Source of the DNA: Polytrichum commune
Taxonomy: Eukaryota; Streptophyta; Polytrichopsida; Polytrichales; Polytrichaceae
DNA: 64,000 bases
Reading direction: 5' to 3'
Assembly: GCA_950295325.1 (NCBI GenBank)
Contig: OX485804.1
Span: 65,502,533 to 65,566,532, forward strand
A program made the translations under genes and the position numbers. Shown piece after piece: positions 46,101 to 63,600 of the stretch. The notes under the pieces were generated by a model. The model was not told where the DNA came from. It ran no database searches and saw nothing but the letters and a program-made list of their open reading frames with translations. Each line of letters starts with the position of its first letter. Position 1 is the first letter of the stretch.

Positions 46101-47217
46101 CATAACCAATTTCATCCACCCAAGTGATGCCAATTTCGAAACTCTACAAAATACAAGGCTCGGCTTTCTTCAACTTCACCTCCTTCGAATATAATTGCCC
46201 GGGTCCTATGGATCGACAGAAGAGGACGCCGTTATACTGTAGGTCCAAGAATTGATCCTTGAGCCAAATGCCACCAAGTTCAGATGCTTGATGCAGGCAT
46301 CCGGACTTTCATACTACGCTTCCTGCTCCAATTCATTCCTGTTTCTTATTCTTTAAGCCCCTCTTTGTTATTCCCAAACCATTGTGAAAGTATTTTCCAA
46401 ATCCAACCCTTGTATAAACCTGAGGCTGGCATAGGGTCAACCCTAATTCAAGAGTTTCAGAGGCCAAGGTAATATATGAACAGCATGCACTCCAAGGTGG
46501 AATAAGGTCCGTCTCAATATAAGAATTTTCCCGAATTCTAAGGCGTCATCAGCCCAGAGGGATTATTCGAGGTCGATTGCTCACTTGTTTGTGTCATTCG
46601 TGCAAATCTAAATAGCCAAGGGTCTCCCAGAGCTCATAAGGCGAGATCCAACGTACCTCTTCCATCTCCCGAAGGATGACATTGCGCTCCCGATTGATCC
46701 GCTCCTCCTCGAACGAAGAATTCTGCAGAATGTCGGCCAGAATATCCACAGCAACCGGGACGTCCTTCTTCAACACCTTGGCGTAGTAAGTGGTCTGCTC
46801 CCGAGAGGTGTAGGCATTCAAATGGCCTCCCATATTCTCAATCTCCTCCTCCAGCTGCCGCAGGTTCCTCTTTTTCGTCCCCTTGAATATCATGTGCTCC
46901 AAAAAGTGAGCCGTCCCGTTCGTTTCAGCCGTTTCGAACCGACTGCCCGCGTCAATCCATACCCCGACGGTGGCCGTTTCCGCGGACATGTTGCTCTCGC
47001 TCGCCACGCGCAATCCATTGGCCAGCGTGGTGACCTTGGTCTCCGGCGTGCCCAGGACGTTGGTGTGGTCGACGTCTTTGGGCACGGGCGAGTTGTAGCG
47101 CTGGAACCTCTCGTCAGGCAAGGCGATCGCATGGCTATGGCGCACGGCAGCACCCTCCCCTCGCCAGACGGAGCGCCTGGCGTGCCTCGCCACCGTCGTC
47201 ACCAACCTGCCCGCCAT
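43195..47217 (-). CDS. MPPB: mitochondrial processing peptidase beta subunit
   Basis: The catalytic M16 metallopeptidase subunit that cleaves presequences of imported mitochondrial proteins; in plants it is part of the cytochrome bc1 complex. Ten exons (47217-46657, 46075-45911, 45475-45338, 45090-44939, 44807-44699, 44492-44394, 44219-44154, 43718-43611, 43521-43456, 43281-43195) join in frame to 516 residues. The start [16 protein letters not shown] gives a basic presequence. The zinc motif HFLEH (about residues 104-108) and the downstream glutamate in ILREME (about 184) are intact, as is the glycine-rich [10 protein letters not shown]. The C-terminus ends in the typical [18 protein letters not shown]. 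The frame is open 71 codons further upstream but that part is not MPP-like. Exon 1 is strongly GC-rich. The exon 5 donor (AAG|GTCCGA) is weak. A decayed second copy lies inverted at 31.5-35.0 kb. Confidence 0.96.
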
Positions 47218-47880
47218 CGCTTCGGCGATCCGTGCGTGAATGTCGTCCCTGCCCTGTGTCTCTCTGTGCGAGACGACTGTCCCTGCGACCAACCATGCAC
47301 TCCCTCCGCGGGAGCCAAACCCTAATCGCTCGCCCCTTAACTCAGGAGCATCGAGGTCGGAAGCAAGAAGAAGAGTAACTTCACACACGAGGCTGAGGGC
47401 CCGCGACCATCGTAGTTCAAGCACTCTCATTGGTGGAGAAGGCGGCGCCGGTCCAAGTTCGCTTCATGCTACGCTTGAGGGACCAACGGAGGAAGTGAAT
47501 GCAAGAATGGATGTATTAAGTCTTCATGGATTCCTACATGCATCAAATGGATCGTGTTTCATGGTCACTTGGACTATTTTCAAACACCTTCACTTGGAGG
47601 TAGGCCTAACACTAAATTGGGAGACCATGGCACTCCAAAATCTCATAACCGTTGATTTATTATATTTTATCATGTGCGAGGACCCCGCGTGGATAGAAAT
47701 TCATTGAGATAGTATTTGGTTGAGGGCCTGGTCACATATGACTTCACACTAGACTTGAGAGTCCGTGACCACACCACATGATTTTGGAAGTGTCTTGGAA
47801 TTGCCTTTGGACACTTCTTTTGGGCTCTCACAATTTCATTGTCGTGGCTTTTGGCTCGTGTTTAAAGTGGCCTTAAGCTT
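43195..47880 (-). repeat. right arm of the large inverted duplication
   Basis: Contains the intact MPP-beta gene and about 660 bp of its 5' flank. It matches 29591-34968 in reverse orientation. Homology on the promoter side ends near 47880. On the 3' side it ends at about the stop codon. Confidence 0.85.
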
Positions 47881-48192: not shown

Positions 48193-48738
48193 TGATATAG
48201 TTGCTACATATATTATGCAATACAATATGTGTGTAATTGAAAATGACAAATTTGATATAGAATGGATAGAAGAAGCATTAAGAGAGAATTGAGAAAATGA
48301 ATAAATAATAGATCATTGAGAAAAGATTGGAAAAAGATGGCTAAAATAACAACTATAAGTGAAGTAAGAAATATCAGCATTACAAGAAATAACACAAGAA
48401 GATCAAAAGATGTGACGAAGATACTAAATTTTTCTTGATAAAAGAAAAAGAATGTAGATTTGCTAGTGGAGTCTATAAAAAATATATGAAGCAAAAGCCA
48501 AATTATTATGGCAGATAAAACTCATAGAATATTCAAATCTAGAAGTCTAGGATATGAATATTGGTTATGATATAAATAAAAATTTATAATTTTTGTACTA
48601 AGATTGTCATACGAGCCGCTGTAGTTTTTAGTAAATTTATTGTAGCTTGGAATTGTACAATTTAATTGGATGAATTACTTATTATTTTTCCAAAATTCTT
48701 TCATCTTGTTTTAATTTTATCTTTTATCTTTTGTAGTT
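48193..48738. repeat. 546-bp direct repeat, copy 1
   Basis: Runs from TGATATAGTTGCTACATA to TCTTTTGTAGTT and is nearly identical to 57785-58330. I counted about six substitutions and no length difference. There is no convincing coding capacity. The ends are not TG..CA. No primer-binding-site-like sequence follows, so an LTR identity is doubtful. Confidence 0.9.
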
Positions 48739-48753
48739 GGGGCCATTCACGAT

Positions 48754-48773
48754 CATGGTACTACTTTGGGGAC
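48754..48773 (+). repeat. partial match to the terminus of the 57.1-kb foldback element
   Basis: CATGGTACTACTTTGGGG resembles CAGGGTACTACTTTTGGC at 57118 and is preceded by GAT in both places. It starts 15 bp after direct repeat copy 1. A CCCTAAACCCTAA stretch follows at about 48871. This may be the left terminus of a larger element whose right terminus is at 57786. Confidence 0.35.
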
Positions 48774-49289
48774 ACAGGACTTAAGGACTCGCCATTTTTG
48801 GGCACGTTTTGGGTATTTTTTTTGTTTTAAAAAAAATCGTTTATGGGACTGCCCAAGAGTCTACTACGCTACCCTAAACCCTAACGGGCCTCACCAGTGC
48901 CTCCCGCGCTCGTTGTTGTGTCGCTCGTTGTTGTGTCGACTCCTTTTGCAAAACTTTCTTCTCTAGCCCTCTGCCATGGCTTCCCACCAAGTTCCAATTT
49001 GAAGTTGTCATCTCCCTCCTCGCAATCTCCCTCCTCTTTGCTTCCCTCCAAACTTTGTTGTTTCTGATCATATAACCATGAATATTCTCATTTCATTTCG
49101 CATTGACAAGGTTGCACAGATAGTGACAAAGGTGAGTACTACAACATTGGGTTTTCATCATTACACTGTGCTTGTTGTTCAGTTATGTGGAAAACATGTC
49201 TTTGTGATCATTTTCTTTCTGATCTGGAAGTTACACAAGTTTTTCAATAACATTGTGTTTGATTCAACCTCATGTGCAGGAAAAAAATA

Positions 49290-51983
49290 ATGGCAACCTT
49301 CAGAACGCCCCAGTGGTTTGAGGTAACGAGGGGTCTACGCAACAACGGACTGGATGTATTGAAGCTTTCAACAAGGGATGTCAGCAAGGAGGAGTTGTCA
49401 CAAGCATTTGGTCCAAAGTCTAGTAAGAATGGGTGGCGTTATGATTACCGCCTCACACCAAAAGCGGCAAGGGAAGTTGAAGAATTGTATTGTAGAGTGA
49501 CTTCGAAAAATAAAATAACTAACAATGAACTTACTCTACAGTTTGCTCGGGGACTCCTTCTTGAGGGTAAGGGTGTTGCAGTCAATTGGGCGGCCTTTGT
49601 TGCACATCTTCATTCCCACAGAGACAAAGTGTGCTCTGTGAAAGCAGAAAATACTGATAAGAGACAACGTGAGGAAGGGTCGACTTATGGCGTCCTCTTA
49701 CATCCCCCTAAAGCATCTGGTATTAGGTCATCTGTCATAGCTAAGACGTGCTCTTCTACTCCCATTTCAGGGTTGGGACCACTTCCTGTTAAAACTCATT
49801 CCGAGGTTAGAATGGGTAGAGGGAAAATGACATTTGCCAAGGCTTTACCGCCTCCTAATTGGTCGTTACTAGACATTGAGGGCATGAAAGCCACAATGGT
49901 CAGTAAAGAACAATTGTGTGCAAGTCTACAGGAGAAAGTAGAGGTCATGAAATTGGAAGGAGAGAAAAAAAGTATTGGGGCTCAAAGGATTCAACTTTTG
50001 TTATCCCAACATGAAGCCATTTACAATGCAACACTTTCTGAGTTTGAGAAGTCCGATGTCAATTAAAGTTATTGCAGCCAGGTTGGTTCTTCAGAACTTA
50101 GAGAACGTGTTGGATGACCTTCTGCTAAAGAAATCTGCTTGTCTAGAGGTTGGATACAGTGGATCTGATATTGGGCAGTTTGATTCTGAGATTGCTCAAA
50201 AGAAGGATGCGCTGAGGTTGGCTTCAGAAACCCTGAAGGAATTAGAATGCCAGAAAGCATGTGAAAGGATGATTGAGAGGTATGCACATGAGAAGCTTAG
50301 GGTTAGCAGAGATGAGTCTGATTCCCTATTGGCAGGCCAAGGCTCAGATGGGAAGGAATACACATCTATGTTGGTCATGCTGAAGACCTTGGATTCCTTG
50401 CTTCCCGCTTTTGAGCACCAAATTCAGAGAATGGAGAAGGGTACATGGGCAATCCTCTATCCACAACCCCTTCCCTCACATCCAGAGTCCCCAAAGGAGA
50501 CTATTTCCATACTTAACCCTTGTCCTGTTTGCAATTTGTGGTATGAATGTCATGAGCATTTGGCTGCTAGTTGTGGCCACACCTACCATCCCTGGTGTTT
50601 TACAGAACATGCCATAAATTCCCTTGCATGTTTAGTTCCTGATTGTGGGGAACATTTTGACAAAAAATCCCTCACAGCCTGGGGAGTAAGACCTTATGGA
50701 GAACATGGGCGGGCGCCTACAAGTCTCACCTTAAACAACGTATCTCCTCAATCTGGTGAGCACACTTACTCCATCTTCCATTATGCCATGTGTTCATTTC
50801 TTCTTAGGTGAAATTAATGACCTAAATGACTTTGCAAACATTCCTAGTACTAATTATTTTCCATTCCTATATGCCTTATATGTTGTGCTTGCTTTGGAGT
50901 CTGTTGAAGACAATGTCTTTTCCTTGTATGCTTCATGGAAGGATAAAAATTCCATTCCTCACAGTCATGAGATGAAATGGGATGTCTTTGGACTTCATGA
51001 ATTCCTTCAAAGTCATGGGTGAATTCGGCCGGTTCAGGGATTAGTTGAAAGTAAAGCCCAAGGATGTATGGGAGTCCTTTTTCAATATTCATGAACTTTG
51101 TATATTCCTTACGTATGGCACAAATTACTTATTGAATACTTGGTACTTCTACATGTTCAATGTTTATTTTCATACATTACTTGCCTTTGAAGTACTTATC
51201 TTTTTTTTCCTTCCTTTTAGTATTAAAGTCCTTGAAAGGTCCTGAATCCTAGCAAAAGTACTTCCACAATTCCTGAAGTTTCCTTGACTTTCTTTTGGCT
51301 TCCCCTTGGCTTCCTTTTGCATGCCAAAGTACTTTTAACATTCTTGATTTACTACTTTTATCTTGCACAACAATTTCAAGAATAATTCCTTTCAATCACA
51401 AAATAAAATAAAAAATATATTGACTTCAAAGTACTTGTTTGTTTCGCAGATTTAGGAACTATTTCGGAACACGGGGCATCATGCTATGCTCCATCCAACT
51501 CACCTTCGACTGCATCACCACACTCGTTCGCTAGTGCTCATGTGCTTGGACTCCCCAGACCTCACCAAGTACCCCAGGACTCCCAACAACATTCCCCTTC
51601 TGATTCACCTCATCTATCACATGATGATTCACCCAATAGTGTTACTTTAGGTCCCAACATTGCAAAAAAACCTCTTCAACCTTGCAAGATATGTGCCTTA
51701 AATCCAACCAAAGTATGCCTCGAGGTATGATCCCTTTCTACGTCACTACAAAGGAGTTACTTCATCCATGCCCTTTGTGCTTTCTATTTCAATTGTTTGG
51801 GCCATTAACACGATGTGTGGATGGTTGCAGGACTGTGGACATGCCGATTTTTGTTTCGCATGTGTTCAAGGACTAACAACCTGCCCAACATGTTCAACAA
51901 CAATTAAAGGGTGGCACCTTCTACAACCTAACTCCCCTCCTCTAAATCGATCCCTTGGTCCTATCCCTCTCAGCAGCATTTAA
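49290..51983 (+). CDS. unrecognised protein: N-terminal WF/AVNWA domain, coiled-coil, two RING-like fingers (frame broken)
   Basis: I do not recognise this family. The ATG at 49290 follows a splice acceptor (GTGCAG), with a likely untranslated exon ending at the donor near 49131. Frame 1 (49290-50066) encodes a basic N-terminal domain with QWFEVTRGL and ARGLLLEGKGVAVNWAAFV, a Ser/Pro linker, then a helix-rich segment. The protein continues in another frame from about 50063 to a donor at 50755. That part holds a coiled-coil-like region and a RING-H2-like cluster (CPVC..CGHTYHPWC..C..C). Exons 51450-51724 and 51831-51983 then encode an S/P/H-rich linker and a split RING-HC (CKIC..CGHADFC..C..CPTC), ending at TAA. 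The frame change needs a one-base indel or an unusual intron. The N-terminal domain is shared with the gene at 55.3 kb. It may belong to a mobile cassette, and a weak resemblance to plant transposon-associated domains is possible but unproven. Confidence 0.55.
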
Positions 51984-52042
51984 TTCATCCATTGTCTGCA
52001 ACACTTCCAACCAGATGACCAAAAATAAAAGAAAAACAAGGG

Positions 52043-52387
52043 TTGCAAAGTGTAGACACTGCCAAGGGTGATCCAGTCCTAGGTTCTGCTAGCGATGATG
52101 ATGATGATGATGCCGGATTACTGACCTGGGTTGCGACTTTAGATAAAGACTATGAAACCCAAGTCAGTAATTTGGAGTCCGAGACCCAACTAACTAAAAC
52201 TGTAGATAATACAATTGATTGTCTTGCTCTTGATACTGATAGTCAAGGCACACAAGAAGACAACACGAGGGACGCTAAAAAGAGGAAAAGAAATCCCACA
52301 CAGCCTGCTCCCTTTCCAAGAGTGCAAACCAGGCTGCGAGGGGATCCTGCTCCAATAAAAGGCAAGAGGACGATGAAATTATCTTAG
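52043..52387 (+). CDS. possible C-terminal exon or separate small ORF, acidic then basic
   Basis: An open frame with a D7 run (ASDDDDDDAG), an acidic T/D-rich middle and a basic tail (KKRKRNPTQP, RVQTRLRG, KGKRTMK). It begins 60 bp after the RING exon stop and could be joined by alternative splicing. A similar R/T-rich basic end occurs at the tail of the 55-kb gene. A 21-bp block at 52062-52082 is repeated exactly at 54635-54655. There is no recognised domain. Confidence 0.35.
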   Translation: MQSVDTAKGDPVLGSASDDDDDDAGLLTWVATLDKDYETQVSNLESETQLTKTVDNTIDCLALDTDSQGTQEDNTRDAKKRKRNPTQPAPFPRVQTRLRGDPAPIKGKRTMKLS

Positions 52388-55266
52388 AGCTCTTAGCATT
52401 TCTTTCATGGTTTCCTAGGCTCTAGAGGAGTTTAGGAATCTGCATCAACAAAACATTGTACCGCCTTTTGGTGTTCTTTTTGAAATGGAATGCCACTTTT
52501 TGAATTCAAAATTCTTTGGGTACATGTACCTTACCAGAATTGCGCTTTTGATCAAAGTTCATTGTCTCATTTTTGTGGGGGAGTATGAGGTTCAACTTTG
52601 GGGGACCCGGAAAACTTGGTGGATTGACTTAGTAGTACTAACTTCTTTAACCTCTTCCATACGATCACCACAAAGAAGCTATGGCCAAGAGTTCATCCAT
52701 ATGAGAGCTGGAGTCATGGCTGCAACTGCAACAACGCCTATGTTAAGTATGTACACATCTCAAATGGGCTGGCACTTTTTTCCATTTCCAGTGTCATTCT
52801 GACCACTTTACTTTTACTTTTTGGGGAGAGAATTTGATGTCATGGCTTATGTGAAAATAAAATCCAAGACATTATTTGATTACATTATTAAATTTTGGTC
52901 TTATTTCAAATAGGTCACAGAAAGTGTTGTCCACCTTGTTTTATTTACTATTTTGGGATGAGGGGCATTTTGGAATGCCAAGTTTGATGCATACATTTTG
53001 CCACTTCGAAGAAAAAAAGACAAAGCTCAAGGATTAATGAAGAGTCCATATTTCTTTTTTGTAGGAAACCCTAACTTTTGAAAGGTTGTTTCCTTGCATG
53101 ATATTGGCCACTTCTGTGACCAAGGAACTTTATTAAAGGAATTGGATACAATTGTTGGGTTCATACTTTCTTGCGTGCATTCTCAAATCTGGTTTAGGTA
53201 ACATGTGCCTTTTGTGTATTCAGGATTCAAATTGTGAGTAGGAATAATTTTTTTGATAGTGGACGATTTAGGTCTAACACATCAGCGACCTATTTTGTGC
53301 GTTCCTTAATCGGTTGTTAGTGAATTGGTTGCAGGTAATGGATTCAGATGCAGAGGGTACTGCAACTGAGTTCTTTGACTACTTCAAGGTGTGGCCCTGA
53401 TTTTGGATTCCTTTTGCAAATTCGAAAGACTAATCATGCAGGCTCTTGTAGCCCTGTCAACACATGATATGCGATGATTAGCATGCGTGTTTATCACTAA
53501 AGGTTTTGTTTTTGCAGGCATCATATACTGTTCTAGAGATAGGGTTATCTAGTCCATTGCGTGCATTTGGCTCTTGTGCAATTTCCTAGGAATGCCTAAG
53601 AATGTAACCTCATTGCTTGAAGGTGACAAATGGACCGCTGTTTTTAGGAAATTGTAGAGGCTTAGTGGTTTTTGGTTCTGTTTGAATTGCAGGTTTTGTG
53701 CAATCAGGGTTTCTTGACATGTCGGAAACATGCAGAATGTATCATTCTACTTGTTGAGATGATGCATGTGGGTTTTATTGTTCTCAGTTCATGTAAAATC
53801 TGCTAAACTGGGTATTTGATTTGTTAAATTTTGCATATCTGTAGCACAACAACTTAATGATTGAACTTTGAACCTAATGAGGTTTATTACTTAGACACCT
53901 GGCAATGTTTTTCCTCTTGTGATGCAAATATCAAGTATAATGGAACATACAAACAGGTGTTTGATAAAATGTATATGCTGAGTGGCTGCAGGATTCTGGA
54001 TGCCCTTGTTTCAAATGAGGCCCTAGATGGATGCAGAACCTGAGGAAGAGGTTCCATCTGAGTCTGACAGAGGAAGTAAGTAAAATCTCCCACTTGGATG
54101 ACGACTACACTGCTTTGACATACTTGTGTTTTGCATTACCAGCTTCCTCTGAGGTTCCTTAGACTAATTGACTCTTAACTTGTCTCCAGCAATGTGTATC
54201 ATCGGTGTTATCACTCATAAGCAACAACTTGGATGCATGGCAAACACGGCAATAAGATTATTATCAGCATGCATTGAATGGTATCTTATAGCACACCATT
54301 GGTTTTGAAGACGTTTGGGTATTTGATCCACCACCTTTTTTTTTGGCTATACTCCTTGGCCCAAAGCGTCCATGTTAAATTTTGCTCCACTTACCTTACT
54401 TTAGCACAACTGGTTTGGAGGGATAACCATCCCCTAAACTAACAACTCATATAGGTATGTCAAAGATAGTATTCAGGAAACGCTTGTATTCTAATATTGC
54501 TCAATTTTGTCAACAACAATTGGCAGTCAACAATGCTCTGATTTGTTCGAGTAGATAGATCAAATGTTGAGTGAATTGGTGAGTTTCTTGATGTGTTCAT
54601 CGGATGTAAGAGGTTAAAGAAGTTAACCATACTACCAAGGGTGATCCAGTCCTAGTTGAAGCACTGTATGAATTTCGAGATAAGTAGTTTATGAGTTTTT
54701 TGTCCTCATTATGGATGTACCTTTTTATGGATGTGTTTTTTTCATTCTCCAACTAATCCTTGTATATCTACTTTGCTTCTCATTCCACATGCTGGTCTAG
54801 AGTTCAATAATGCACCCGATGTTCATTTAGCGAGTCTTCATTGCATTTAAATGGCCTCAAGTGCACAAGGTACATTTCCTCGTATCCCCCCTCCCCTGGT
54901 ATCATTTCAAATTATGAATACCTTAAGTTCTTTAGTACTTCCCCTTGCCTTATTTAAGTTCAAAGGACCATCTAATTAGGAGTAGTCGAGTTCATTGTAC
55001 ACACGTGTATTAATGAGTGATGTGTTCATAATGTGCAGGTTCCATTATATAATTGCTACTTCTAAGAGGGAGAGCATTCCATCCCAACCTTCTATGTTTT
55101 GTTTGTGGCTCTTCCTGGACTCTTCCTTTTTGCCGGGCCCCCTCCCACTCTTCCTCTCCTCTTCCTCTCCTCTTCCTCCATCTCCCTCCTCCTTCTTAGC
55201 TCCTCTTCCATATCACTATTTGACTACTCCCTCCCCTTCATCTCCATATCTACTTTGCATTCCAGG
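52388..55266. other. non-coding or decayed DNA inside the 48-58 kb cassette
   Basis: No conserved protein. One short exon-like piece at about 53336-53389 (acceptor GTTGCAG, donor AAG|GTGTGG, open in one frame) and the 21-bp repeat at 54635-54655 suggest fragments of genes. Untranslated exons of the 55.3-kb gene may lie near its right end. Confidence 0.4.
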
Positions 55267-56656
55267 ATGGTTGAGAGTAATTGGGGTTCATTTGAGTGGT
55301 TCAGAGACCATGTTGGTCTTCCTAGTGTAGGTTTGAATCCGAGGAAGGTTGATTTTGAGGGGAGAGATGGCCTAGTCCGAGAGTGTGATACTTTGTGGGG
55401 AACTAGGATGGGTCATGGTGGTTACCATTTCATGGAGAATGGTCCAAAGGAATTGCATGAGAGGATTCTTACCTTGTGGCCACTGGTTTACCAAAGAGAA
55501 TGGCCACAAGCCAAGGAAATTGGTCTATCCTTTGCACTTGGAGTCATGGCTGAGAGGAGAGGTTTAGCAGTTAATTGGGCATTGTTTGCAACTGTTGTTC
55601 AAGTGAGTGGCTATAAAGCACATAAACGACAACATTCAGATTTTGTGACTATTACCTCTCCTAGTACCTCACCTGTCACAACAACCAAAAAAATCAAGGG
55701 TAAATCTCCTATGACCTCTTCTAACTGTCCAGATTCTCAGGTACTAGGTGATGGTCTTCTTTCTGGTCAAAAAAGAGTGAGTGAGGCTCCTAAGAAATCT
55801 GCCAGTCCCTCATTTGTGTGTGAAGATCATGTTTGGGATATGAGGAAAGAGACACTTGGCAAGAAAATAGAAGTCCAGATGCGGTTGTTGAGTGATAGAG
55901 ATGCCTTTGTCATTGGGTTGAGGGGAGAGATAAAGCTTGTTCAAAGCAACATTAGTCAAATTGGTTACCAAACCTTAAAGTGCAAGGAACGCCTTGAAGT
56001 CGCGCGTGCTCAACAAACTGCTTGTGGACCAGAGGCTGATGCAGATTTCCACATTTTTTGTGCCTTGGAGGTAAAACATGCTCTTGATGAATTGGTTTCC
56101 CTTGTTGGAGAAGGTGATACTCTTCAAAAGAGTATTGACTCCATACAAGAAAGACTAGAGGCTGAACTTTCTACCAAAAAAAAATTGAGCATGATTACCA
56201 TGCCACCCTGGCGCAATACTATGTTGCATATCAGAGTATGATGAATTCAAAGTCATCTCAAACTATCCCCAATGTTCCAACCATAACATCTGAAGTCCTC
56301 AAACCTGCAACAACAATTCCAGGTTTGAATTTGGCTCCCACCAAAGTGATTAAAAAACATAGAGTAGTCCTAATTTTCAGGTTCACATCAGGAACATTTC
56401 TGCATTCAAGGGATGTAAGTGGGTTTTGTGCAATTTTCAAGTATCTACATCAAGACTGCCAGTTATACTGATTTTTTGTGAGTATGCAGATATAGGTGCC
56501 CCTGCACAACCTCCATCAACAACATCAAAATTGTCTATATTGAGTGATGTGGCATCCACTCCTACATCATTGAATGCATCCTCATCTGGACCAGCATCAA
56601 GAACAAGACGCAATTTGAGGATGGGGGTTTCCACCTCTGACCCTAACACAGTATGA
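55267..56656 (+). CDS. second member of the WF/AVNWA family, without RING (frame broken)
   Basis: Unrecognised function. The ATG at 55267 lies directly after an acceptor (TTCCAG|G), the same layout as the 49.3-kb gene. The first 110 residues (SFEWFRDHVGL, LSFALGVMAERRGLAVNWALF, KRQHSD) align along their length with that gene's N-terminus. A Ser/Thr-rich linker with KKIKGKSP and a long helix-rich, probably coiled-coil region follow. At an A9 run (about 56175-56183) the frame shifts. The continuation in the next frame reads like protein (HDYHATLAQYYVAYQSMM) to about 56380. A further exon-like open frame (from about 56491) ends at 56656 with a basic SRTRRNLRMG tail. It encodes no Cys/His finger. 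The shift may be a pseudogene lesion or a homopolymer sequencing error. Confidence 0.5.
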
Positions 56657-56771
56657 ACCCTGCAGGTAAGTATATACCCTGTTTTAGGTACATGGGTGCT
56701 ACTTCTGTGTTAAGCACATATATTTGAGCTTGTTTGTAGGTCTAAATTGCTGATGGAAATTGCTTCCGCAG

Positions 56772-56928
56772 GCCAGTGATTGCAGAGGACACCTTGGTAA
56801 TGAAGTTGAAGCTCACAAAGTTGAACAAGATAGTTGGAATTGCAAAGATGGCTGGGCAGATCTTTCTTGGTGGTGAACTTGTCTGCGAAGGAGAATTTAG
56901 GGGGGCTTTGGCTAAGGAGGAGAAATGA
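56772..56928 (+). pseudogene. detached last exon of a FabZ-type 3-hydroxyacyl-ACP dehydratase
   Basis: After a good acceptor (CTTCCGCAG) the frame reads PVIAEDTLVMKLKLTKL, then VGIAKMAGQIFLGGELVCEG, ending EEK-stop. This matches the C-terminal strand region of plant FabZ, the dehydratase of type II fatty-acid synthesis in plastids or mitochondria. The upstream exons with the hot-dog-fold core and catalytic residues were not found nearby. It is therefore a fragment, probably captured with the surrounding cassette. The frame itself is intact, so it could be spliced as a 3' exon of a neighbour. Confidence 0.7.
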
Positions 56929-57117
56929 TGAGTAGGACTGCTGATATTGGACAAATGTGCTTTGTAATTCTTTGAAGTCGTAGCATTTGAGAGTTTCATC
57001 TACAGTCCCAAGGAGACACAGGGCATGTGTGTGTTGTCTCGTAGGTACTTTTTTTTGGTTGAAGGTAATGCTCTTGGTTATGTTTCTTGGTTATGAAACC
57101 ACGTAGTTCTATTGGAT

Positions 57118-57786
57118 CAGGGTACTACTTTTGGCCGTCTAACGGAAAACGGACAAGATCTTCTCGGCTGACCGAGGGGGCAGCTAACGGGAATTGCAGA
57201 CCAGCATGAATCCTAAATAAAAAATGACAATTTGGCGACATGAATGGCATTTTTTGCTATTTAGGTGTGCATTGGTGGTCAATTATTTCCTGTTATGTAG
57301 CTTGGTACCTTGGTAAAAGTGTCATGTGTCCATTCATATAAATTTTTTTGTCCAATTCTAATATTAAACGTTCCTTTTACGTGTGGCCGTGAGTATATGT
57401 ATATTTGGACATGTTTGGTGCCACATGTAAAGTTGGGCAATTGCTATTCAATACATATTTGGTTCTATTGGTACACACTTGAACGATGATTGTGAGGAAA
57501 AAATTTGGGATCGTTTCGATTGATTCTTGTTGTCCTTTTCATTCCTTGATCCTAAGGTGAACAATGAAGACAACGGTCCTAAATGTCCTTTAAGGAATCA
57601 AAAGGATATCTTAGATGACCCTATTCCTTCTAAATTAACTTTGTCAATGTACTCGACATGGAGTATGAAATGTAGGTATGATCCAAAATATGCTTCACAA
57701 TACAAATGTAAGCATACCAAGCATGTGAACTTATCCAAAAAAGTCCGTTTTCCGTTAGACGGCCAAAAGTAGTACCCTAAACCCTG
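57118..57786. mobile_element. foldback DNA element with about 37-bp terminal inverted repeats
   Basis: The left end starts CAGGGTACTACTTTTGGCCG and continues through CTAACGGAAAACGGAC. The right end, reverse-complemented, starts CAGGGTTTAGGGTACTACTTTT and continues identically. The only difference is a 7-bp TTTAGGG (one telomere-repeat unit) present at the right end only. The roughly 590-bp interior is AT-rich with no transposase. Flanks ..GGAT and ATAT.. give no clear target duplication longer than AT. The right end abuts direct repeat copy 2. The superfamily is uncertain. Confidence 0.75.
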
Positions 57787-58330
57787 ATATAGTTGCTACA
57801 TATATTATGCAATACAATATGTGTGTAATTTAAAATGACAAATTTGATATAGCATGGATAGAAGAAGCATTAAGAGAGAATTGAGAAAATGAATAAATAA
57901 TAGATCATTGAGAAAAGATTGGAAAAAGATGGCTAAAATAACAACTATAAGTGAAGTAAGAAATATCATCATTACAGGAAATAACACAAGAAGATCAAAA
58001 GATGTGACGAAGATACTAAATTTTTCTTGATAAAAGAAAAAAAATGTAGATTTGCTAGTGGAGTCTATAAAAAATATACGAAGCAAAAGCCAAATTATTA
58101 TGGCAGATAAAACTCATAGAATATTCAAATCTAGAAGTCTAGGATATGAATATTGGTTATGATATAAATAAAAATTTATAATTTTTGTACTAAGATTGTC
58201 ATACGAGCCGCTGTAGTTTTTAGTAAATTTATTGTAGCTTGGAATTGTACAATTTAATTGGATGAATTACTTATTATTTTTCCAAAATTCTTTCATCTTG
58301 TTTTAATTTTATCTTTTATCTTTTGTAGTT
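57785..58330. repeat. 546-bp direct repeat, copy 2
   Basis: Same orientation and length as 48193-48738, about 99 percent identical by eye. The period between copies is 9,592 bp. It begins exactly at the end of the foldback element. The right flank (CTTGGAGG) differs from that of copy 1 (GGGGCC). Confidence 0.9.
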
Positions 58331-62603: not shown

Positions 62604-63600
62604 TTATTGAATGATGTTTGACACCCACTCATTGTACAAGGCATCACGAATTCTAAACGATGTAGCCCTAGAAGCACTCTCAGTAACTCGTCTTCTTCTC
62701 GGAATTCTGAGGTCATTATGATTTTGGTGATTATTAGCCTCGTTATTTCCATCTACTAATCTATCATCATAAATTTTGTAAATTTTTTGTAAAACACAAC
62801 ATGCTGTGATGATTTGTCCAGCGTATGGCACAATGAAATTCAAATTTTTCAGAACACGCCACCTATTCTTCAATTGAGCAAAAACATTCTCAATTTTAAC
62901 ACGACCTTGTCTCAGTATGTTGTCGAACGCATCCCGATGAATGTTTTCTGACCCCCTCGAATTGTATGCTTTCATAATATTCAACAGTGGAAGATATGGC
63001 GAATTCCCTACAACATACGGTAGTATTATTTCATTGTTGATGACGACACTTGGTCTTTGTAAAAAATTTCTACTCATAAATTTTTTGTATAAACTTGAAG
63101 CACGAAGATGAGTAGCATCATGAGTTCCTCCAGGTGCAAATAAGGCAACATCCCCGAAATTTAAATCACTATCACATATTGCTTGTAATAGAACACTATG
63201 GTGGTTATGGCGATTCCAGTAATCGGCAGGAACTAATGCTAGTTTTTGTTTGTCTGCTAGTCTAATGATGGTTCCATCTATCGTGCCACACATTTGGAAA
63301 ATTCAAGTTAAAGTTTTGAATTTCCTAATTATTTCTGCTAGTCGGGGTCCGGAAGGAATACTAATAAATTGTGAAAATAAATTTTCTTTATTTGATAAGA
63401 CTTCAGTAATTAAAAATATATATTTCCACATTGTACTACTACCCGTGCCATATAAATTTGCAATATGAGCATTGGGGTATCCGAAAGCTAACATTTTCAA
63501 TGTCATAGGTAACGTTCGCTCGACTATGTCATTCTATGGGTGCTCTAAATATTATCACTTATTTCTGCACATAAGGTCTCAAAAGGTCACATAGAATGTT
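62604..63600 (-). pseudogene. PIF/Harbinger DDE transposase, degenerate
   Basis: The 229-codon open part (63293-62604) has the three catalytic blocks of the DDE_Tnp_4 nuclease: CGTIDGT (first Asp), GGTHDATHLRAS (second Asp) and GRVKIENVFAQLKNRWR (Glu). Upstream in the same frame, 63306-63506 and a few codons beyond encode the helix-turn-helix-like part (NDIVERTLPMTLKMLAFGYP, IANLYGTGSSTMWKY). It is separated by a single in-frame TGA at 63303-63305. Further 5' (about 63520-63600) the similarity (LLRPYVQK) continues only with stops. It is therefore inactive unless read through. Terminal inverted repeats and the 3-bp duplication typical of Harbinger were not located. Confidence 0.88.

Follow-up and report, generated by a model that had tools for sequence, protein, structure and literature searches.

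A partly decayed copy of a large transposon with 4-bp target site duplications and two paralogous accessory genes in the moss Polytrichum commune

Transposons of the Sola superfamily are described, in the accessible text of PMC10741241 and a table of PMC9033089, as having transposases with an aspartate triad (DDD), 4-bp target site duplications (TSDs) and lengths mostly of 2–9 kb with some above 15 kb; these sources record them in the moss Physcomitrella and present them as seemingly uncommon in flowering plants. A giant Sola-1 element of the brown alga Ectocarpus, Sola1-1_Ec32 (21.5 kb), has an accessory gene opposite the transposase, and the part of PMC12477816 that deals with it says of Ectocarpus that the function of accessory genes in eukaryotic DNA transposons is often unknown. 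Two other kinds of element are relevant for comparison, namely Pack-TYPE elements (Pack-MULE and Pack-CACTA), which are transposase-less terminal inverted repeat (TIR) elements with host exon and intron pieces (PMC8903248, as far as its accessible text goes), and foldback elements or miniature inverted-repeat transposable elements (MITEs). Here we describe an element at positions 48739–57783 of a 64,000-nucleotide stretch of the P. commune genome (C2:65502533–65566532, contig OX485804.1; hereafter the window, in whose coordinates and forward strand features are given unless stated otherwise). The genome comprises 408 Mb, of which 7 contigs hold 406 Mb. The element is very probably a partly decayed, non-autonomous copy of a large TIR transposon with 4-bp TSDs, whose complete form has three genes: two paralogous accessory genes and a convergent gene for a D-D-D transposase.

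The boundaries of the element were defined by comparison with its relatives. Of 41 genome matches to 48736–50100, the window's own included, 35 started at 48739, and this shared edge together with pattern matches of the terminus places an intact left TIR at 48739..48767. When the genome was searched with the TIR pattern CCATTCACNNTNRGGGTACTAC, allowing up to two mismatches, 495 forward and 496 reverse matches were obtained, compared with 2 and 1 for the reversed pattern used as a control; because 991 matches stand against 3, the match at the left edge far exceeds chance expectation. Within the window the pattern was found once at up to three mismatches, at the left edge. A sequence-only reading of this DNA, which had proposed a gene-carrying mobile cassette, had pointed to matching edges, CATGGTACTACTTT at 48754 and CAGGGTACTACTTT at 57118; both are present. 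Absence of a second copy of the termini, which that reading had named as a result that would refute it, was not seen, given the 991 matches. Aligning the ends of other copies, as that reading had proposed, defined both the termini (GGGGCCATTCACGATCAGGGTACTACTTT and its near-inverse in complete elements) and the TSD. An exact 4-bp TSD flanked 18 of 20 short copies, taken from 25 left–right terminus pairs about 750 bp apart among the matches listed; the remaining two were one base off and none was longer, whilst mismatched flanks agreed in 6 of 380 control comparisons. Six further copies inspected by eye, all outside the 20-copy set, gave the same result (L005, AATA; L006, GGCT; L007, TCAT; L008, TGGG; and the full-length copies E2, ATGA, and E3, CATT). 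A hAT assignment, suggested by a CAGGG-like inner motif, was dropped because the true ends are GGGGCC with a 4-bp TSD. Multi-copy inverted termini, a TSD of fixed length and a transposase in full-length copies were all seen, as in TIR cut-and-paste transposons, and 48739–57783 is one copy of a TIR DNA transposon family.

Four other copies carrying both accessory genes (E1–E4) were extended, and two of these could be followed from TIR to TIR (E2, 13.3 kb; E3, 12.75 kb). In both, the order was TIR, gene 1, gene 2, convergent transposase gene, TIR. The window copy shared 48739–52509 and 54741–56671 with all four, at 73–86 % identity per aligned piece. In E2 and E3, about 6.4–7 kb with the transposase gene on the opposite strand separates gene 2 from the right end, whereas the window copy has 476 bp there. 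No transposase was found inside the window copy, in agreement with the sequence-only reading; the copy is non-autonomous and partly decayed and has lost the transposase block. Short copies of about 750 bp, in which the left terminus is joined to the same right end, carry the equivalent of 57234–57780 and probably number in the hundreds (40 were scored among 599 first-look candidates). Inverted terminal sequences and short non-autonomous copies are features shared with foldback elements and MITEs, but what folds back here is a large element with a single additional, inverted terminus. Between the transposase exons of E2, E3 and L005, BLAST matches overlap with an offset of about 80 bp, which suggests tandem repeats inside the transposase gene.

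The accessory genes were found to travel with the transposase well beyond these close copies. Searches with the transposase, gene 1 and gene 2 merged to at least 67 transposase loci and at least 80 accessory loci, both lower bounds, with 77 of 135 candidates of the transposase search scored. A convergent accessory gene lay within 30 kb of 34 of the 67 transposase loci, 17 of them with two or more matches, compared with a mean of 0.15 and a maximum of 2 in 200 runs of random placement. Genes 1 and 2 are therefore the transposon family's own accessory genes and were not captured into the window copy. In subfamily F1, with a transposase about 50 % identical, the main exons of gene 1, gene 2 and the transposase are all open; a second F1 copy, with 99 % identity in a 3.4-kb comparison, has the TSD CAGC. 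Subfamilies F2 and F3 (transposase about 40 % identical) have one accessory gene each, with an N-terminal domain (N-domain), a coiled coil and a RING-like finger. F2 is bounded by TIRs with the TSD TTAT in one copy, and the termini of F3 were not definable, the second F3 copy being an identical inverted duplicate. The two F3 elements (C1:24066084 and C1:24143634) lie about 77 kb apart in opposite orientation and match at 100 % across the 3,550 and 2,585 bp that were aligned (L022/L023 versus L029/L030), and represent either a recent inverted duplication or an assembly artefact. In a midpoint-rooted FastTree phylogeny of 24 of the 67 transposases, two accessory genes were confined to the clade of E and F1, one F1-clade row having none, and the other clades had one accessory gene or none. 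Given this distribution, the simplest history is likely one ancestral accessory gene that was duplicated inside the transposon in the E and F1 clade.

Gene 1 (49290..52387), delimited by genome comparison, profile search and the ratio of non-synonymous to synonymous substitution rates (dN/dS), encodes the N-domain (49290–49640), a coiled-coil part that follows it, a RING-H2-like finger (50518–50631), a C3HC4 RING (about 51813–51908, with its first cysteines in the preceding exon) and a basic tail (52043–52387). The RING-H2-like finger scored under the zf-RING_2 cut-off in the window, F1, F2 and F3, and the C3HC4 RING of the window copy scored 27.1 bits with zf-C3HC4_3 (cut-off 27.0). Gene 2 (55270..56671), defined by comparison with the four other copies that carry both genes (L001–L004), encodes an N-domain paralogous to that of gene 1 and a coiled coil; the core shared with those copies stops at 56671. 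That the window holds two diverged paralogues, as first suggested from the sequence, was borne out by a match of 29 % identity over 119 aa (E 2e-6; 3e-6 in the reverse search) between the N-terminal part of gene 1 and gene 2.

Across all computed pairs, dN/dS was 0.31–0.56 for gene 1 and 0.21–0.33 for gene 2. In the comparison of the window with E2 and E4 (two of the four copies), the right frame gave 0.37–0.38 for the parts of gene 1 and 0.25–0.26 for gene 2, against 0.75–2.72 in wrong-frame controls, with the intervals clearly apart for gene 2 and the second part of gene 1. Judged from these ratios, both genes are under constraint. The N-domain (117 aa; 22 of 28 available rows aligned, six with close relatives in the set being left out) was predicted with confidence as five helices, with a predicted local distance difference test score (pLDDT) of 89.7 and a predicted template modelling score of 0.82. 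Foldseek found no significant match to this model, the best E being 4.0 for the PDB and 1.3 for viral models, and a PDB sequence search remained at chance level (best E 0.52). Because no significant structural match was found in the PDB or viral models, the two collections compared, the predicted domain may represent a new fold.

A constrained accessory family with a confidently predicted domain, RING-type fingers and a likely one-to-two duplication accompanies the transposase across diverged subfamilies. The likeliest roles of its products would be as partners of the transposase or its complex with DNA, or as ubiquitin-ligase-like factors against host silencing, the latter being a tentative suggestion somewhat short of an even chance. 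In either role gene 2 would assist through its N-domain and coiled coil, and gene 1 through its two RING-type fingers as well. A helper role is directly testable because near-identical copies with open exons exist. A bolder and rather unlikely interpretation is a transposon lineage with its own regulator family, combining an unseen fold with RING fingers, going back to one ancestral gene that was doubled in one clade, and acting in ubiquitin-ligase-like anti-silencing or as transposition partners, with a transposase of a possibly undescribed lineage or superfamily. For annotation, genes of such genomes that fall into this 'unknown gene family' are transposon genes.

The transposase gene has a main exon of 568–651 aa on the strand opposite to genes 1 and 2, and gave dN/dS values of 0.21 and 0.34. 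No Pfam or NCBIfam match was found for the protein, and its profile had no PDB sequence match. Three aspartates (D232, D324 and D372 in F1 numbering) were invariant in all 24 aligned transposases, as were D293, H366 and K368. In an AlphaFold model built from four input sequences, the three aspartates lie within the first strand, immediately behind a later strand and just ahead of a late helix, respectively, with an RNase-H-like order of strands and helices; we take these to be the positions expected of an RNase-H-like transposase. The top Foldseek matches listed, all weak, were mostly PIWI/Argonaute, HIV reverse transcriptase and other RNase-H-fold proteins. A claim of fold from this model was rejected, since a pLDDT of 45 is too weak for it. 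Searches for relatives of the transposase gave none in viral contigs and one among genome contigs, a decayed relative (L031, CAKZGI010000474.1) on a contig of a metagenome-assembled genome bin named Trichormus, which we take to be the genus of the Azolla symbiont; the contig is perhaps fern DNA in a cyanobacterial bin.

The assignment of this transposase to a superfamily was made by analogy. The element is probably best classed as Sola-like, because its 4-bp TSD, DDD triad, large size and occurrence outside the flowering plants fit published Sola elements, including Sola1 of Physcomitrella. That the transposase belongs instead to another superfamily, known or new, is unlikely without being far-fetched, and the lack of any Pfam, NCBIfam or PDB sequence match speaks for it; the claims about the structure of the element would be unchanged. 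Kolobok and piggyBac use TTAA, CACTA and Chapaev have CACT ends and hAT has an 8-bp TSD, none of which fits the termini and TSDs found here. The same four features that fit Sola (PMC10741241, PMC9033089, in their accessible parts) also argue against another superfamily, as does the sole outside relative, which lies in the Trichormus bin, Azolla having substantially more SOLA elements than Salvinia according to the part of PMC6786969 that treats them. There are also differences: accessory genes go unmentioned in the accessible text of PMC10741241 and PMC9033089, whereas two paralogous RING/coiled-coil genes are present here, and the accessory protein of Sola1-1_Ec32 combines ParB-like and DNA methyltransferase parts rather than forming such a pair (PMC12477816, same section). 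No RING-type accessory pair was found for Sola elements in the accessible literature searched, which did not extend to the founding Sola papers.

Between gene 2 and the right end of the window copy there is a 3' fragment captured from a host FabZ gene (56698..57085, recognized by genome match), made up of intron pieces, the last exon (about 56772–56928) and 3' flank. Positions 56762–57085 were 88 % identical to C2:41245128–41245450, covering the end of the last intron, the last exon and the 3' flank, and two further short intron pieces were matched. The detached FabZ exon reported from the sequence alone is thus real, and its parent lies at C2:41.245 Mb, where the two exons tested carry a FabA-like domain (E 2.8e-16 and 2.2e-11); Pfam by itself does not recognize the window's 50-aa exon. 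The fragment was captured as DNA, because the pieces include intron sequence. Among the 12 candidates scored in a genome search, the region matched only the window and C2:41245128, and no sign of movement after capture was seen.

With a host gene fragment between its TIRs and no transposase, the window copy has the Pack-TYPE feature, and Pack-TYPE elements are reported from all main plant TIR superfamilies (PMC8903248, in its accessible portion; the word Sola is absent from its main text). This is what favours the view, put forward in the sequence-only reading, of a transposon that captured host genes, with genes 1 and 2 as cargo too. That view held for the mobility of the element and for FabZ; it did not hold for genes 1 and 2, which belong to the transposon family. 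Their relatives are convergent with the transposase in diverged subfamilies as well as in two complete copies, and both are constrained, making capture of these genes improbable; an ancient capture preceding the subfamily split would still be compatible with the data. Unlike Pack-TYPE elements, the window copy keeps the transposon's own accessory genes, and capture was seen once, with no later movement.

The right end of the element (57148..57783) was 95 % identical to that of L005, which has a broken transposase and lacks genes 1 and 2, and 86 % identical to the right ends of E3 and E2. Just inside it is an inverted extra copy of the right terminus (41 bp, 57114..57154), found by inverted-repeat search and copy comparison; the pair 57114–57154 and 57743–57783 is 95 % complementary. 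The right TIR of the window is 12 bp shorter than that of L005, its last 12 bp being missing. The first reading had seen a foldback element here, and nested independent insertions, with a separate foldback MITE beside unrelated genes, would draw on the short copies that carry 57234–57780 and on a nested insertion further left. They are nevertheless very improbable, as 57148–57783 is the right end of the transposase-bearing L005, E2 and E3, in the right place and orientation, and in the short copies these same two ends are joined, as in deletion derivatives. A separate foldback MITE was accordingly rejected in favour of the element's own right end plus the 41-bp inverted copy of the terminus. 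The nested insertion (2.2 kb, 52510..54740, unstranded, with inner inverted arms at 52630–52672 and 54592–54634) was recognized by comparison with L001–L004, in all of which it is missing, and is nested material that may be a further TIR element, either of low copy number or with cargo. For its middle there is one other long match in the genome (C2:6414955–6416789, 95 %), with inverted arms around it.

The near-identical direct repeats noted at the outset were confirmed as 546 bp with 6 substitutions (98.9 %), at 48193..48738 and 57785..58330, the left copy ending in AGTT and the right one having homology to an older repeat to at least 58641. They fall outside the element, although the cassette as first noted (48193–58330) included them. 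All five repeat relatives fetched (71–74 %) were uninterrupted by the element, running from 48117 to 48734/48736 and then from 57784 to at least 58641, and they are paralogous empty sites. The insertion point follows AGTT (48735–48738), presumably the 4-bp target site; AGTT is likewise found at the end of the right repeat, ahead of the old flank. The older repeat was the insertion target, because the short copy L006 was itself inserted in it; the 546-bp repeats are a duplicated piece of this repeat at the target, and not element termini. A reading in which the repeats are long terminal repeats (LTRs) and the whole is a non-autonomous LTR retrotransposon that carries odd cargo, attractive only in that near-identical repeats exactly flank 9 kb, can be dismissed as almost certainly wrong, since the 546 bp come from the interior of an older and longer repeat that is continuous without the element in five of five relatives, are not beside other copies bearing gene 1, and belong to a repeat that L006 also entered, whilst the termini and TSDs are of TIR type. 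Of 38 other repeat matches, one had an element match among those listed within 20 kb, namely a short copy at a distance of 1.8 kb (C7:38016364), and none was beside a copy bearing gene 1. Short copies near or inside the older repeat hit by the window copy are found at C7:38016364–38016911 and C7:38018178–38018714 and in L006; a target preference for this repeat is possible.

The arrangement of the window copy could have arisen as follows. The element would have moved by cut-and-paste, with transposase supplied in trans, and a break at the right end would have been followed by aborted gap repair. Such repair would have copied a stretch of the FabZ locus in place of the transposase block and the terminus in inverse, leaving the inverted 41-bp copy, with 12 bp of the right TIR lost in the same repair; copying from an unoccupied sister would then have duplicated 546 bp of the target. 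In this reconstruction one right-end repair would explain all four scars.

Several observations weigh against a three-gene transposon with a decayed copy in the window. No intermediate of the right-side repair was found, and the transposase model is poor, with no Foldseek match reaching E 0.001. The window copy of gene 1 has a frameshift near 50062, and E1–E4 carry stops in one gene or another, so that function in the window copy is doubtful; open gene-1 frames are present elsewhere in the genome. In the first part of gene 1, the dN/dS confidence interval of one wrong frame (0.49–1.28) overlaps that of the right frame (0.26–0.55). The right terminus was seen only in E2 and E3 among the four extended copies, E1 overrunning the fetched stretch and E4 having neither a right terminus nor a transposase block within 18 kb. 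Finally, 33 of the 67 transposase loci had no accessory match in the expected place (32 had none at all and one had only a non-convergent neighbour), and 27 of the 80 accessory loci, including the window's two, had no transposase in convergent position. Some lineages may lack the accessory gene, or the matches may be too diverged.

Other features of the window lie outside the element. On the reverse strand at 62604–63293, near the element, an open 229-aa frame has a DDE_Tnp_4 domain (E 1.7e-16) and is presumably from a PIF/Harbinger-type transposase. An exon of an M16 peptidase gene (46594–47430, reverse strand, E 5e-49) lies about 0.8 kb ahead of the left repeat, with its 5' side toward the element. 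At 2350–2862 there is a tandem array with a period of 233 and 2.2 copies.

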